Below are positions 46,899 to 52,742 of a DNA stretch of 64,000 nucleotides, one piece after another. A model generated the notes under the pieces. The model was not told where the DNA came from. It ran no database searches and was given only the letters and a program-made list of their open reading frames with translations. The position numbers and the translations under genes are program-made. The stretch lies in NCBI GenBank assembly GCA_017526785.1, contig JAFXQV010000004.1:1-64000 (forward strand). The letters are read 5' to 3'. How positions within the stretch are numbered: the first letter of the stretch is position 1; every line of letters starts with the position of its first letter. Origin of the DNA: Oscillibacter sp. (GTDB lineage: Bacteria > Bacillota > Clostridia > Oscillospirales > Oscillospiraceae).

Positions 46899-46933
46899 CT
46901 CCCACGTTGCCGCACATGAGGCAAACCGATTCC

Positions 46934-47010
46934 GGGAGCATAGCTCAGCTGGTTAGAGCGCCTGCCTTACAAGCAGGAGGTCACTGGTTCGAGTCCAGTT
47001 GTTCCCACCA
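46934..47010 (+). tRNA. tRNA-Val (anticodon TAC)
   Basis: A full cloverleaf with encoded CCA. Acceptor GGGAGCA pairs with TGTTCCC, anticodon TAC is at 46978-46980 and GTTCGAGTC is the T arm. Confidence 0.97.
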
Positions 47011-47016
47011 TTACAC

Positions 47017-47093
47017 GGCCCGGTAGTTCAGTTGGTTAGAACGCTAGCCTGTCACGCTAGAGGTCGACGGTTCAAGTCCGTTCCGGGTCGCCA
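47017..47093 (+). tRNA. tRNA-Asp (anticodon GTC)
   Basis: Acceptor GGCCCGG pairs with CCGGGTC. Anticodon GTC is at 47051-47053, and CCA is encoded. Confidence 0.97.
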
Positions 47094-47149
47094 CTTTTGG
47101 AATCGGTTTCGGTATCTGGGCGGGATTTCGTCGGAGAATATAGAAATTC

Positions 47150-47225
<76 letters not shown>

Positions 47226-47228
47226 CAT

Positions 47229-47304
47229 GCGGGCATAGCTCATCTGGTAGAGCGCCACCTTGCCAAGGTGGAGGTAGCGAGTTCGAGCCTCGTTGCCCGC
47301 TCCA
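47229..47304 (+). tRNA. tRNA-Gly (anticodon GCC)
   Basis: Acceptor GCGGGCA pairs with TGCCCGC. Anticodon GCC is at 47272-47274, and CCA is encoded. Confidence 0.97.
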
Positions 47305-47322
47305 TTTTTTTATCCGCCACCC

Positions 47323-47397
47323 GGTGACATAGCCAAGTGGTAAGGCAAGGGTCTGCAAAACCCTGATTCCCCGGTTCAAATCCGGGTGTCACCTCCA
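47323..47397 (+). tRNA. tRNA-Cys (anticodon GCA)
   Basis: Acceptor GGTGACA pairs with TGTCACC. Anticodon GCA is at 47355-47357, and CCA is encoded. It is the tRNA read by the cysE T-box specifier, and the last tRNA before the accessory genes. Confidence 0.97.
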
Positions 47398-47402
47398 AAA
47401 CA

Positions 47403-47438
47403 AAAGCCTCCGGAACCCGAACGGGTTTCGGAGGCTTT
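47403..47438 (+). terminator. Terminator of the tRNA operon
   Basis: A 16-bp stem with one G-T pair (47403-47418 with 47423-47438), loop GAAC, ending TTTCCC. Confidence 0.85.
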
Positions 47439-47510
47439 CCCGTTGCGCGGAAGGCTTGCATTTCTCTTTCCGAATATGATATACTACCGGATAAAGAGAG
47501 GTGCAGGGGA

Positions 47511-48788
47511 ATGAAATTGACGAAACTCCATTTTACAAACTTCAAGTCACTCCGCGACGTGTCGTTTGAGCCGGGGCGCGTGAACGTGTTCATTGGTGCG
47601 AATGGTTCGGGGAAAACCGCGCTTCTGGAAGCGCTGGGGCTTTGCACCGCCGCCATGTCCGGCGCGGTAAACGAAGACCGCTTCCAGCGCCGCGGAATCC
47701 GTCTCAGTGTTCCGGAATTGTACCGTTCAAGTTTTGTTGATGATAAACCGGAGCGAACGATGTCTTTTGCCTTGGACTGGGTGGAGAACGAAGGCGAGAA
47801 CACGGCAAAATTTTCGTGCCGTGCCGGACTTGGGCCGTATCGCATAACCGCACGCGGACACTCAAAAAAGACGGCGGAAAAACGGACTCCCGACCTTGCC
47901 CCCAAACCCGTTTGGCGTTGGCTCACAAATCAGTTTATCTATAAAAAAGACGGCGACACGCTCTTTGACCGGGGACTGCCCCCCTCGATAACGCCTTTAG
48001 ACATGTATTTCCTGTCTGGTTTCTCGAATGACATATTCGCACAGCACGCCGGAGACAGTGGTATTGACGCCTATGAAAAGTTCAGACAATATATAGCCTC
48101 GTATGGCATTTATCAGCCGACGACGCCCGTTTTGCGCGGCACGATTCCCGACCCGAACCAGACCGAACCCGTCGGACTGAACGGCGGACGGCTGGCAGAG
48201 GCCATGAAAGAGTTAATACGGACAGATGAAGAGGGCGATTCGTACTTTGGCAGTCTGTATATGGACGACGTTCTGGAGATGATTGACTGGCTGCAAAGCG
48301 TCAAAATCACGGAACCCAAGAAAAGCACCCTGAACGCCAACATTCCCACCACCCGGAATGTCATCGAGTTTCAAGACCGCTATATGAAATCAACCGCCCG
48401 GTTTACTGCCTACGACGCAAGCGAAGGCGCGCTGTATGTATTTTTCCTGCTGTCGCTGGCCATGCACCCGGACGCGCCGCCGGTGTTCGCCGTGGACAAT
48501 TTCGACCAAGCCCTGAATCCCCGCCTTGCCAGACACCTGACGGAGACTTTCTGCGAACTGATTCTGGAACAGAAAAAGCAAGTCTTTCTGACGACGCACA
48601 ATCCCCTTGTGCTGGACGGGCTGGATTTGAGTAACGACGACATCCGCCTCTTTACCGTCGAACGCGATTCTGAAAGCGGGAAAACGAACGTGAAGCGGGT
48701 GGAACTGACCACGAATTTGCTCAAACAGGAACAACCCGCGTCGCGGCTCTGGGTGAATGGCCTTTTGGGAGGTGTCCCCCTCCTATGA
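47511..48788 (+). CDS. AAA family ATPase (OLD/AAA_21-like), candidate defence protein
   Basis: The 425-residue ABC/SMC-type ATPase has Walker A GANGSGKT (29-36), a signature-like ASEGALYV (303-310), a Walker B region VFAVDNFDQALNP (325-337) and the switch TTHNP (361-365). The Walker B carries Asn where the catalytic Glu usually follows the Asp. The middle part (about 100-290) is unique. It overlaps the next gene by 4 bases (ATGA), which makes a two-gene module. By analogy with OLD, Gabija and PARIS, an ATPase with a TOPRIM-like partner suggests anti-phage defence. It lies 110 bp after a tRNA cluster, a common integration site. RBS AGAGAGGTGCAGGGGA. Confidence 0.82.
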   Translation: MKLTKLHFTNFKSLRDVSFEPGRVNVFIGANGSGKTALLEALGLCTAAMSGAVNEDRFQRRGIRLSVPELYRSSFVDDKPERTMSFALDWVENEGENTAKFSCRAGLGPYRITARGHSKKTAEKRTPDLAPKPVWRWLTNQFIYKKDGDTLFDRGLPPSITPLDMYFLSGFSNDIFAQHAGDSGIDAYEKFRQYIASYGIYQPTTPVLRGTIPDPNQTEPVGLNGGRLAEAMKELIRTDEEGDSYFGSLYMDDVLEMIDWLQSVKITEPKKSTLNANIPTTRNVIEFQDRYMKSTARFTAYDASEGALYVFFLLSLAMHPDAPPVFAVDNFDQALNPRLARHLTETFCELILEQKKQVFLTTHNPLVLDGLDLSNDDIRLFTVERDSESGKTNVKRVELTTNLLKQEQPASRLWVNGLLGGVPLL

Positions 48789-49606
48789 GCGAAGAAAACC
48801 CAAAAAATTTGTCAATCGGCATTGTCTACGAGGGGAATACCGATTACTTGATTTTGAATGGCATCGTTCGTCACATTATCGGCTGCAGAGACTGCCTTCC
48901 CCTTCAGCCGAGCCATGACCTCAAAAAGAGTCTCTATAGACCGGGCTGGAAAGGTGTCCTCCGATGGTGCCAAGCCCACGGTTCACCAGACAGCGCTTTG
49001 GACTGGAACAACGATGGACAATTTCTTGTCGTGGACAGGGTTAAAGTGGATTTGCTGATTATCCATTTGGACGGGGATGTCTCCCGCAATGAGGATAACA
49101 GGATTGTGCATTGCATGTCCGGCTGTCCGTCCGCCCGGAATTGTCAGCACTACGGGCAAAAGACGGTGAATCCATTAAGTTGCGACACCAAAACATGCCC
49201 TGTGAAAATTCCCTGTCCGGAACACGCGCCGAATCCCGACGGGTATACCTCCCACCTCTCCCGGTTGATTCTCGATTTGCTGAAAGCCCCGAAAGCGGCG
49301 TCCGACAGGATTTGCCCCGTGATTATCTGCGACAGCATGGAAGCGTGGATTATCTCCGCGTATGACAAGACGCCCAACCCGGAAGCGATTCTAAATCCCT
49401 ATGAGACAGTTATCGCGAAATCAAAGGCGTACCACGGTTTGAGAATCCATAGAAAAGGAAACAAAAAAGATGTCACGGTTTATCGGGAGTTCCTGAAAAC
49501 CCTGAAAGCAAACTGGGAGCATGTCAAGACACAATGCCCGTCCGCGCAGAGATTCGAGGACAGCGTTTGTCATGCGCTTCAAATCGCACCCGCAAAAAGC
49601 CCTTGA
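48785..49606 (+). CDS. TOPRIM/DUF4276-like protein with Cys cluster
   Basis: This 273-residue protein has features of DUF4276/TOPRIM-like nucleases: E16 in VYEGNTDYLIL, D96 and D98 in LLIIHLDGDVS, and E186 in CDSMEAWIISAYD. A cysteine-rich insert (C110, C114, C120, C133, C138, C144, with H122 and H147) lies between the DxD and the last Glu and could bind zinc. Assignment rests on motif order only. The start overlaps the ATPase stop, so the products are probably made together. The promoter of the next gene overlaps its stop. Confidence 0.72.
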   Translation: MSEENPKNLSIGIVYEGNTDYLILNGIVRHIIGCRDCLPLQPSHDLKKSLYRPGWKGVLRWCQAHGSPDSALDWNNDGQFLVVDRVKVDLLIIHLDGDVSRNEDNRIVHCMSGCPSARNCQHYGQKTVNPLSCDTKTCPVKIPCPEHAPNPDGYTSHLSRLILDLLKAPKAASDRICPVIICDSMEAWIISAYDKTPNPEAILNPYETVIAKSKAYHGLRIHRKGNKKDVTVYREFLKTLKANWEHVKTQCPSAQRFEDSVCHALQIAPAKSP

Positions 49607-49631
49607 CTTTTCCCGCCGCGCAAAATATACT
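49603..49631 (+). promoter_or_regulatory. Promoter of the large membrane protein gene
   Basis: TTGACT (49603-49608, overlapping the upstream stop codon), 17-base spacer, TATACT (49626-49631). Confidence 0.8.
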
Positions 49632-49676
49632 GGTTTCCGGCGAACCCGTATTTTTTCGGAGAAAGGGGCGTTTTGA

Positions 49677-51527
49677 GTGCCTTTTATCAATTTCAATTTC
49701 GGTGGGTCGTTCCCGCCCGACGGATTCGGCGGCGACTTCAACGGCGATTTCCCGCCGCCCCGGCCGCGTCCGCCGCGTCGACCCATCGGCAACGCCGCCA
49801 CGCGCACACTCATTAATCTGCTGGTGACACTAGTTGTCGGGCTTGTGTGGTTCTATCTCGAACTGCCCGCCATCAACCCGCACACGGGGGACTTTTATTT
49901 CTTCATCTTCCTGCTCTGCGCCACCTACTGCGCCAGCGCCGTTTTCACGACCGGGTTTCAGGGAGAGGGCGTCGGCGGCTATGTGCGGTTCGTCGCCAAA
50001 CAGTGCCGGATACCGTTTTTCACGGTTCTGCTTCTGTGCGCCGTGATTGCCGGGGGCATGTTGAGTTCGTGGGTGGTCATCCGCGCCGGAAGCTACAGCG
50101 CACTGCTCCCGATTCAGTCCGGCGACTTCGCGGCGGAGGTCGAGGAAATCAGTTACGACCAAATCCCCATGCTCGACGCCAACTCCGCCGCGTTACTCGG
50201 GAATCGGCGCTTGGGCGAACTCGCCGACATGGTGTCACAGTTCGAGATTCTGCCGTCCTACACGCAAATCAACTACCGGGGGCGTCCGGTACGCGTCACG
50301 TCGCTTGCCTACGGCGACATCTTCAAGTGGTTCAACAACCGCAAAAACGGCCTCCCGGCCTATATCGTCATTGACATGGTAACGCGGGAAGCCGAAGTCG
50401 TGCGGTTGAGTGAGGGCATGAAGTACACCACCGCCGAACATTTCGGGCGCAATCTCTACCGTTATCTGCGCTTCCACTACCCTACCATGATGTTTGACGC
50501 GCCGGTGCTGGAACTCGACGAGAACGGCGTGCCGTGGTGGGTCTGCTCGCGGATAATTAAGAGAATCGGCCTGTTCGGCGGCGTGGACATTCAGGGCGCG
50601 GTACTCGTGAACTCCATCACGGGCGAACACTCCTACATGGAGCAGGTGCCGGAATGGGTCGACAGGCTCTACTCCGCCGGAATCATCGTGCAGCAGTACG
50701 ACTTCTACGGGCGCTATCACAACGGGTTCCTGAACTCGCTTCTCGGACAGCGGGATGTCACCGTCACCACGGAGGGCTACAACTATATCGCAATCGCCGA
50801 CGACGTTTATATGTACACGGGCGTCACGTCCGTGACCTCCGACGAATCCAACATTGGCTTCATTCTCTCGAACCAGCGCACGAAAGAGACGCGTTTCTAC
50901 TCCATCGCGGGTGCCAAGGAGTATTCCGCCATGGACAGCGCCCAGAGCCAGATTCAGCAAATGCGTTACACGGCCACATTCCCGCTACTTTTGAACATTG
51001 CCAGCCAGCCCACGTATTTTATGGCGCTCAAAGGCGGCGACGGCCTTGTGAAAATGTACGCCATGGTCAATGTCCAGCAGTACGACATTGTCTCGACGGG
51101 TTCCACGGTCGCCGACTGCGAGAACAGTTACCGCCAGACACTGGCCAGCCGCGGCATTATCGACAAGACGCTTGCAAGCCCCATTGAGGCAGAACCCGTC
51201 GACGAGTACGAGGCGGTCGGCGTCATTACGGACATCCGGTCGTCGGTCATCGGCGGCGACACCCACTACTATGTAAAGCTGTCGGACGTTCCGGGGTATC
51301 TGGATTTCGACGCGGCGTCCGTGCCGACGGCGGTACTGCTGAACGTCGGCGACCGTATCCGCTACCGCTGTGAGGCGTTCGCGGGCGACGAACTGATTTC
51401 AGCGTCCGGGTTCGAGTACGACCCCGCCCCCGCAACGCCGACCCCCACCGCCACCGACACGGCACCGGAACCCGTCACCGACACGGCGGCACCTGTCCAA
51501 CCCGATACGGCAACCCCCGCGCAATAA
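49677..51527 (+). CDS. Large membrane-anchored protein of unknown function
   Basis: The 616-residue protein starts at GTG, with AAAGGGGCG upstream. A Gly/Phe/Pro-rich cytosolic head (about 1-40) is followed by three hydrophobic segments (about 45-62, 75-95, 112-135). The large extracytoplasmic domain is rich in Tyr, Val and Thr (for example YIAIADDVYMYTGVTSVTSDESNIGF), and the tail is Pro/Thr-rich (TPTPTATDTAPEPVTD). I do not recognise a family. It lies between the ATPase module and hsdS but has its own promoter, and its base composition resembles the core genes, so it need not belong to the defence genes. Confidence 0.75.
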   Translation: MPFINFNFGGSFPPDGFGGDFNGDFPPPRPRPPRRPIGNAATRTLINLLVTLVVGLVWFYLELPAINPHTGDFYFFIFLLCATYCASAVFTTGFQGEGVGGYVRFVAKQCRIPFFTVLLLCAVIAGGMLSSWVVIRAGSYSALLPIQSGDFAAEVEEISYDQIPMLDANSAALLGNRRLGELADMVSQFEILPSYTQINYRGRPVRVTSLAYGDIFKWFNNRKNGLPAYIVIDMVTREAEVVRLSEGMKYTTAEHFGRNLYRYLRFHYPTMMFDAPVLELDENGVPWWVCSRIIKRIGLFGGVDIQGAVLVNSITGEHSYMEQVPEWVDRLYSAGIIVQQYDFYGRYHNGFLNSLLGQRDVTVTTEGYNYIAIADDVYMYTGVTSVTSDESNIGFILSNQRTKETRFYSIAGAKEYSAMDSAQSQIQQMRYTATFPLLLNIASQPTYFMALKGGDGLVKMYAMVNVQQYDIVSTGSTVADCENSYRQTLASRGIIDKTLASPIEAEPVDEYEAVGVITDIRSSVIGGDTHYYVKLSDVPGYLDFDAASVPTAVLLNVGDRIRYRCEAFAGDELISASGFEYDPAPATPTPTATDTAPEPVTDTAAPVQPDTATPAQ

Positions 51528-51587: not shown

Positions 51588-52742
51588 ATGAGAGTAAAGT
51601 TATCGGACATTTTTGACCTACAAATGGGGAAAACCCCGTCCAGAAACGAGCTTTCTTATTGGGGCGGAAATCACAAATGGGTTTCTATCGCCGACATCAG
51701 CGGCGCGGAAAAGTATATCCGCACCACAAAGGAATGTATCACCGACAGAGGCGTACAGGAAAGCGGCATAAAGGCCGTTCCAAAGGGAACTGTCATTATG
51801 AGTTTCAAGCTGTCCATCGGCCGGGCGGCGATTACGGCCGAAGATATGTTTACCAACGAGGCGATTATGGCCTTTATTGATAAACATGTTTTGGACATTG
51901 ACGCCAGTTATCTGTACTATCTGTTCAGCGGCACGGACTGGAGCGCCGGAACGAATAGGGCGGTATTGGGCTTGACGCTGAACAAGGCGGTTCTGTCCCA
52001 GAAAGAAATTGAGATTCCGCCGTTAGACGCGCAATTATCCGCCGTCAGAACACTGGATAAAATCAGCGGCCTGCTTGCCCTCCGTAAACGGCAACTTGTC
52101 AAACTGGATGAACTTGTTAAAGCCCGATTTGTGGAGTTGTTCGGCGACGTAGTTTGGAATAACCGAGACTGGCCTTTATACCAGTTTTCTAAAATCACAA
52201 CTTCCCGCCTTGGAAAAATGCTGGACGCAAAACAACAGACAGGAAACTATCAATACCCGTATTTAGCAAACTTTAATGTCCAATGGTTTCGATTTGATTT
52301 GGACAAATTGAACGAAATGGATTTCAGTAAAGAGGAACAAATCGAATTTTCACTAAGAGACGGCGATTTACTCGTTTGTGAGGGCGGGGAAATAGGCCGT
52401 TGCGCAGTATGGCACAATGAAACACAGCCTTGTTATTTTCAAAAAGCTATTCATAGGGTACGATGTAACAAAAACTATATCATACCTGACTATTTAGCAT
52501 GGTGGTTTAAGTATAACTGTGACCACGGCGGATTTGCTTCCATTGAAGGAGCCAAAGCAACAATATCGCATTTACCCGGCGCGAAATTAAAAGTGTTGAA
52601 TGTGGCAGTTCCCCCGCTTGACTTACAAGAACGCTTTGCGGCGTTTGTGGAACAGAGCGACAAATCAAAACTTGCGATTCAAAACAGCGTCGACAAACTG
52701 GAAACGCTGAAAGCCGCGTGCATGCAGGCATATTTCGGGTGA
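51588..52742 (+). CDS. hsdS: Type I restriction-modification specificity subunit (orphan)
   Basis: The 384-residue HsdS has two target-recognition domains separated by conserved helical spacers: TRD1 starts RVKLSDIFDLQMGKTPSRNEL, spacer 1 is around IPPLDAQLSAVRTLDKISGLLALRKRQL, TRD2 starts WPLYQFSKITTSR, and the final helix is PPLDLQERFAAFVEQ. HsdS selects the DNA site for the methylase and nuclease. No hsdM or hsdR is next to it. It starts after the GC-rich hairpin with GAGG upstream, and a convergent hairpin separates it from the opp operon. Confidence 0.92.
   Translation: MRVKLSDIFDLQMGKTPSRNELSYWGGNHKWVSIADISGAEKYIRTTKECITDRGVQESGIKAVPKGTVIMSFKLSIGRAAITAEDMFTNEAIMAFIDKHVLDIDASYLYYLFSGTDWSAGTNRAVLGLTLNKAVLSQKEIEIPPLDAQLSAVRTLDKISGLLALRKRQLVKLDELVKARFVELFGDVVWNNRDWPLYQFSKITTSRLGKMLDAKQQTGNYQYPYLANFNVQWFRFDLDKLNEMDFSKEEQIEFSLRDGDLLVCEGGEIGRCAVWHNETQPCYFQKAIHRVRCNKNYIIPDYLAWWFKYNCDHGGFASIEGAKATISHLPGAKLKVLNVAVPPLDLQERFAAFVEQSDKSKLAIQNSVDKLETLKAACMQAYFG

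Follow-up and report, generated by a model that had tools for sequence, protein, structure and literature searches.

The two overlapping genes that follow the tRNA cluster of this Oscillibacter contig are a new, divergent member of the catalogued candidate defence system PDC-M31. Here, the window is the whole stretch of 64,000 nucleotides that was analysed, and the two genes are called A and B; the coordinates of the module and of the features around it are collected in Table 1. The PADLOC-DB model PDC-M31A matches A with an E value of 5e-135, residues 3–423 of the protein pairing with positions 2–393 of a profile of 395, and PDC-M31B matches the product of the adjacent gene, B, at 6.3e-67 (profile positions 3–238 of 241). 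The sequence-only reading had proposed a two-gene ATPase/TOPRIM-like candidate defence module, a proposal that is supported by these matches and by the accessory nature of the pair; its further statement that the details matched no system it knew must be given up, as PADLOC-DB already names the pair, with nearly end-to-end matches. Both window genes share the gene order and adjacency of PDC-M31, and a plasmid copy beside a CBASS locus matches it too. The divergence is seen in A, which shares no more than 54% of its residues with any one of the tree's 37 further rows, lies on a long branch, and is about 30 residues longer than other members.

The PDC systems are presented in PMC12988326 as unvalidated candidates from a guilt-by-embedding approach, with reference to a 2024 preprint of Payne et al., while PMC11811056 names Payne et al. 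2021 as their source. Searching main texts for PDC-M31 gave no paper, and searches of the same scope for DUF4276, and for DUF4276 together with AAA ATPase, found nothing.

Table 1. Positions of the PDC-M31 module and neighbouring features, numbered as in the window.
Feature	Coordinates	Strand	Description or basis
tRNA-Val, -Asp, -Phe, -Gly, -Cys cluster (neighbour, outside the module)	46934..47397	+	ARAGORN
Terminator-like hairpin, 17-nt arms, after tRNA-Cys	47403..47438	+	left edge of the acquired DNA follows it
Probable promoter of the pair: TTGCAT, 18 nt, extended -10 TGATATACT	47456..47485	+	by eye, alignment
Gene A, PDC-M31A	47511..48788	+	425 aa, OLD/AAA_21-like ABC ATPase
Altered Walker B of A, FAVDNFDQALNP	48486..48521	+	alignment of 36; control ORFs
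Gene B, PDC-M31B	48785..49606	+	273 aa, TOPRIM-like protein
Cys/His-rich insert of B, putative zinc site	49109..49225	+	alignment of 36
Right edge	49592..49593	.	homology to three same-genus genomes begins, within the last codons of B
Promoter-like site of the conserved neighbour gene, TTGACT-17-TATACT	49603..49631	+	consensus scan, homology

The two ORFs, their coordinates and their four-base overlap (ATGA) were all borne out, and both ORFs are complete. The same arrangement, A followed by B with an ATGA junction, is found in all 44 intact pairs (39 of them distinct) among 61 relatives' loci checked by HMM, a set in which some places occur twice. As for the remaining loci, by our reading five end at a contig boundary, four have B alone broken, two have A alone broken, and in six both genes are broken or A is missing. 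A preferential loss of B, as a sign of toxicity, was considered and set aside, because a bias of four loci to two is unconvincing. In a codon comparison of nine pairs of close relatives, dN/dS was 0.03–0.16 for A and 0.06–0.20 for B in eight; the ninth gave no computable dS. Such low values in close relatives argue that the gene pair is more than chance.

The assignment of A as an AAA_21/OLD-like ATPase proved correct (Pfam AAA_21, E 1.5e-22). The solved structures that match it are those of OLD, PtuA, Rad50, RecF, SMC and transporter ATPases, with nearly all of these matches confined to the first 40–50 positions. Conservation across 36 aligned A proteins extends to the Walker A motif, to the DASEG signature, and to the switch His in TTHNP, and D332 is invariant. 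The altered Walker B, which had been pointed out from the window copy, is equally a conserved property of these 36 sequences: it reads D-S-F-D in 32 and D-N-F-D in four, the position of the catalytic Glu (N330 in the window copy) thus being held by Ser or Asn, respectively. The plasmid copy has D-N-L-D at this motif, a copy from a phage collection has D-S-F-D, and the catalytic Glu is missing from all 38 sequences. By comparison, ten of 13 control ORFs, which are OLD proteins or DUF4435-linked, carry [D/E]-E-P-E, while a pattern search found none in the other three. Therefore, the missing Glu is a trait of all aligned copies of A. Hydrolysis can survive a change in Walker B, since PMC12796447 describes the archaeal OLD protein Cran1 as one in which alanine at either Walker-B Glu is without effect on ATPase activity. 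Of GajA, the same source states that ATP hydrolysis is likely lost and that the Toprim domain is freed on ATP depletion (PMC12796447).

The product of B likely has a TOPRIM fold, judging from its conserved acidic residues and from profile comparison. Twelve positions (D20, D89, D96, D98, H109, C110, C120, C133, C138, C144, H147, and E200) are invariant in 36 aligned B proteins, and E16 is kept in 35. Two of the motifs first noticed in the window copy, E16 and D96xD98 (36/36), are therefore conserved, and the third, E186, is not: 24 of the 36 have D at this position and 12 have E, and the plasmid relative, L155, has neither. This plasmid B keeps E16, D20, D89, D96, D98, and E200, and E16, D20, and D96xD98 are also kept in the distant phage-collection copy. 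The Cys-rich insert was also confirmed as a conserved feature of the 36 sequences; C112 is present in 35, the window copy carrying Ser. In the plasmid relative, C144 alone remains of the Cys/His residues, which places the insert outside the core in one proteobacterial example.

The description of B as DUF4276-like did not hold for the window protein, which scores 15.0 bits (E 0.029) against a Pfam gathering cut-off of 30.2. Weak Pfam matches among the 36 B proteins are to OLD-like_TOPRIM in 11, DUF4276 in five, and DUF3226 in two, the latter two being families that we take to be TOPRIM-like; there are also weak matches to DUF4838 in five, with the lowest E value of the scan (0.0014), and to a dozen scattered others. 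DUF4838 is among the matched families that are not known to be TOPRIM-like. When the B alignment was compared by hhalign with a profile of 11 OLD TOPRIMs (of 13 found), EGxTD of B fell on EGxTE, and DGD fell on DCD, with a score of 25.66, a probability of 6.4, and an E value of 0.0057. Far lower scores came from a reversal of the profile (11.5) and from the alignment of A (12.6), and the best of 298 column shuffles scored, of 300, gave 24.93, none reaching the score of B. Because the hhalign probability is low and the best shuffle is close, we grade the fold as likely and no firmer. No solved structure matching B was found.

How does the pair relate to systems already described? PARIS (AriA/AriB, class 4 OLD) resembles it in that the AriA model matches A (2.9e-22) and in that the genes are separate and adjacent here too, the TOPRIM nature of B resting on a weak profile match. 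The AriB effector is a DUF4435 protein, whereas none of the 36 B proteins matched DUF4435 at E values up to 1; members of that family are present in 3 of 148 genomes. Moreover, the Cys/His insert may set B apart from AriB, and A is without the catalytic Glu, in contrast to the DEPE of two DUF4435-linked control ORFs. Separate, adjacent genes for ATPase and TOPRIM are what characterises class 4 OLD systems according to PMC12796447. Gabija GajA (class 2 OLD) likewise joins an OLD-type ATPase with TOPRIM, but PMC10568477 describes it as one chain whose gene adjoins that of a UvrD-like helicase, whereas the window pair consists of two ORFs, and none of the four window proteins that were scanned matched a helicase.

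The AbiLi (4.8e-23) and HEC-01A (1.8e-23) models also match A, far below PDC-M31. AbiLii, the small partner of the AbiLi ATPase, is RloB-like, and a Pfam scan of the 36 B proteins gave no RloB match. The HEC-01B model matched 23 of these 36 weakly, the best at 4e-6, with the window B absent among the matches listed; a search for HEC-01B relatives across the phylum gave no match, its control being silent as well. MADS, a multi-gene cluster with a methylase around mad3, was rejected as an identity for the pair: mad3 models match A far below PDC-M31A, the NCBIfam model at 48.9 bits against a cut-off of 420. In the genome of the window, the methylase family PF02384 gave a single weak match (23.4 bits), on another contig, C1.

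The distribution of the pair is patchy. One way to dispose of a defence role was that its homologues might be core genes, present at the same locus in all relatives, and this is not what was found: B occurs in 2 of 37 same-genus genomes, many of them incomplete (its own and G022), and in none of 23 genomes from other families of the order; the PDLC04573 model, of the B family, matches 3 of 394 genomes of the order, its own included, and PDLC04571 matches 1 of 378 genomes of the phylum, again its own. The neighbour gene at 49677, on the other hand, is present in 53 of 61 same-genus genomes, including this one, so that the accessory part is the module and not its neighbour. A scan of a genome collection, made with two peptide patterns that are biased toward this branch, yielded 55 confirmed loci, by their titles Clostridia (e.g., Lachnospiraceae and Oscillospiraceae) or unplaced Bacillota, plus three viral contigs. 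The distant copies are one unverified, unannotated phage-collection record and one plasmid; the plasmid B gene had no match at the DNA level in 5,426 E. coli genomes.

The module is mobile and shared in a cassette-like manner. DNA comparison of 30 intact loci with flanks (of 41) gave 162 pairs that have 1400 nt or more of the module in common, and in 141 of these pairs the sharing is confined to it, meaning nothing beyond up to 200 nt on either side and no other match longer than 200 nt; the other 21 share more. The module thus behaves as a cassette of roughly 2 kb. Its right end is less sharp than its left, since many matches of shared DNA stop inside B. In the window, homology to four same-genus stretches stops at 47438–47446, which marks the left edge of the acquired DNA. 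The position of the right edge means that the last codons of B derive from the promoter region of the neighbour gene; the stop codon of B overlaps the -35 of that gene's promoter-like site. No clean empty site was found among the same-genus genomes compared. The promoter of the neighbour gene has three different left flanks in G003, G009, and G019, and therefore the spot looks rearranged rather than simply filled. As a separate observation, the segment 49593–49676, seen also in L125, L126, and L127, carries the neighbour promoter region conserved in four genomes with a left side that is different in every one, and is a recurrent rearrangement breakpoint.

The suggestion that tRNA-Cys served as the integration site fared less well. 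The terminator said to stand 110 bp after this tRNA exists as a hairpin, but the distance was wrong, because the hairpin starts at the 6th base after the tRNA and gene A at the 114th. No repeat links the 3′ end of tRNA-Cys to the far edge within 46900–49800, and no integrase match was obtained among the four window proteins scanned. Repeated co-occurrence with tRNAs was looked for, and a tRNA lies in the examined flanks of just 1 of 39 other intact loci. The tRNA association of the module is incidental.

Some copies lie in prophage-like, viral, or plasmid DNA. In one prophage-like locus (L041), the pair stands between an HNH gene and the genes for terminase small, terminase large, and portal proteins, and a viral contig (L061) carries the same stretch, with an HNH gene upstream too. 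On the conjugative Enterobacter plasmid pE5_001 (L155:3809-10699), traI and a gene of the DsbA family stand upstream of a distant PDC-M31 pair, and a CBASS locus follows the pair directly, its genes matching a SAVED effector, a cyclase, and an E1-E2 protein. Beside the clostridial pairs, no PADLOC family was found in more than three of 123 nearest neighbours (1e-15; 36 loci), and the Pfam tally of the same neighbours is mixed (25 of 112 families listed). A clostridial defence-island setting was accordingly dismissed as weak, given the few PADLOC matches. Three records named Flavonifractor, Anaeromassilibacillus, and Pseudoflavonifractor (L009, L010, and L012) are 99.7–99.99% identical over 13.7–16.5 kb around the module, a conjugative coupling-protein gene included, which reflects either recent transfer or a mislabelled or contaminated assembly.

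Many relatives share a signal upstream of A. A TTAGATA box precedes A in 28 of 39 modules, as against 2 of 398 other ORFs, mechanically called, from the same loci; it lies about 80–125 nt upstream of A in many relatives (e.g., L009, L030, and L047), and in the nine cases with both exact motifs it starts 28–30 nt before a -10-like TATAYTTAA. The wider consensus, read by eye from the upstream alignment, is AWTTAGATATGG, and in 7 of 39 copies the box is doubled, 45 nt apart. The window copy departs from these relatives, the box being absent upstream of its A. The probable promoter of the window pair was not listed by the consensus scan.

What, then, might the pair do? The account that we consider probable is that of a mobile two-gene defence system in which an ATP-clamped ATPase restrains a separate TOPRIM nuclease. 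The pairing, the overlap, the conserved motifs, the mobility, and the settings are observed, and the activity of B, poor hydrolysis by A, and the events in the infected cell are inferred. With Walker A, the signature, and the switch His present but no catalytic Glu, A would probably bind ATP as a long-lived switch, without turnover. In the resting cell, A with ATP bound would hold B inactive in a complex, both proteins coming from one coupled message. Infection, through a phage protein or falling nucleotide levels, would then free or open B, which could nick nucleic acid by means of a two-metal TOPRIM site (E16, D20, D96, and D98), and this nicking would kill or arrest the cell and so end the infection. 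The Cys/His insert of B would aid recognition of the substrate or of its partner. PARIS offers a precedent, for PMC12409363 reports that AriB, the TOPRIM protein, is sequestered by the ATPase AriA and set free once a phage protein binds; GajA, as described above, is another.

It is tempting to go further and to propose a distinct class, in which an ATPase that has lost its catalytic Glu for good acts as an ATP-occupancy clamp on the TOPRIM effector. A zinc-binding insert, which the clostridial branch has and which is largely absent in the single plasmid relative studied, would set the target of the effector, and its level would be set by a promoter box carried on the cassette and perhaps read by the complex itself. 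We regard this as improbable, and the Cran1 result, by which Walker-B changes need not stop hydrolysis, makes such a class less probable still. An addiction module, akin to toxin–antitoxin systems, with B as toxin and A as antitoxin, would persist because it stabilises prophages, conjugative elements, or plasmids and not because it stops phages. Consistent with that are one copy in a prophage-like locus, another carried by a conjugative plasmid, and one close to a gene for a conjugative coupling protein, as are the overlap coupling in 44 of 44 intact pairs and the conserved promoter box, which might serve as an operator for autoregulation. It is nevertheless an unlikely explanation, considering that models of two phage defence proteins, AriA and AbiLi, match A, that one copy is found beside CBASS, and that B is not clearly lost alone more often than A. 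In addition, typical toxin–antitoxin pairs are smaller than A and B.

The roles might also be exchanged, in a defence system where A is the effector and B, instead of being a nuclease, regulates it by binding nucleotide or zinc. To this we give little credence: the plasmid relative, from which most of the Cys insert is missing, still has E16, D20, and D96xD98, and an A without its catalytic Glu would be a poor stand-alone motor. In its favour are that the fold of B is unproven and that, in the 36 sequences, conservation is no lower for the Cys/His insert than for the acidic residues. Finally, an accessory DNA-repair or replication pair of RecF/OLD-like kind, with no immune role, appears very unlikely in view of the patchy presence, the cassette-like sharing, and the copies on viral contigs, in a phage-collection record, and on a plasmid; it would accord with the resemblance of the N-terminal part of A to RecF and Rad50 heads and with an archaeal OLD protein that, as PMC12796447 presents it, has a cell-cycle role and apparently none in defence.

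Irrespective of these readings, an anatomy is now given for PDC-M31: its invariant residues, a Glu-less ATPase, a cassette of roughly 2 kb, and prophage-like and CBASS settings. If the model of an ATP-clamped A restraining B is true, A could join GajA as an OLD-type protein that binds ATP without hydrolysing it and guards a TOPRIM enzyme. An HsdS (type I specificity) gene, at 51588–52742 (+), lies two genes downstream of B and may be orphaned, since its own genome holds the single weak PF02384 match given above.
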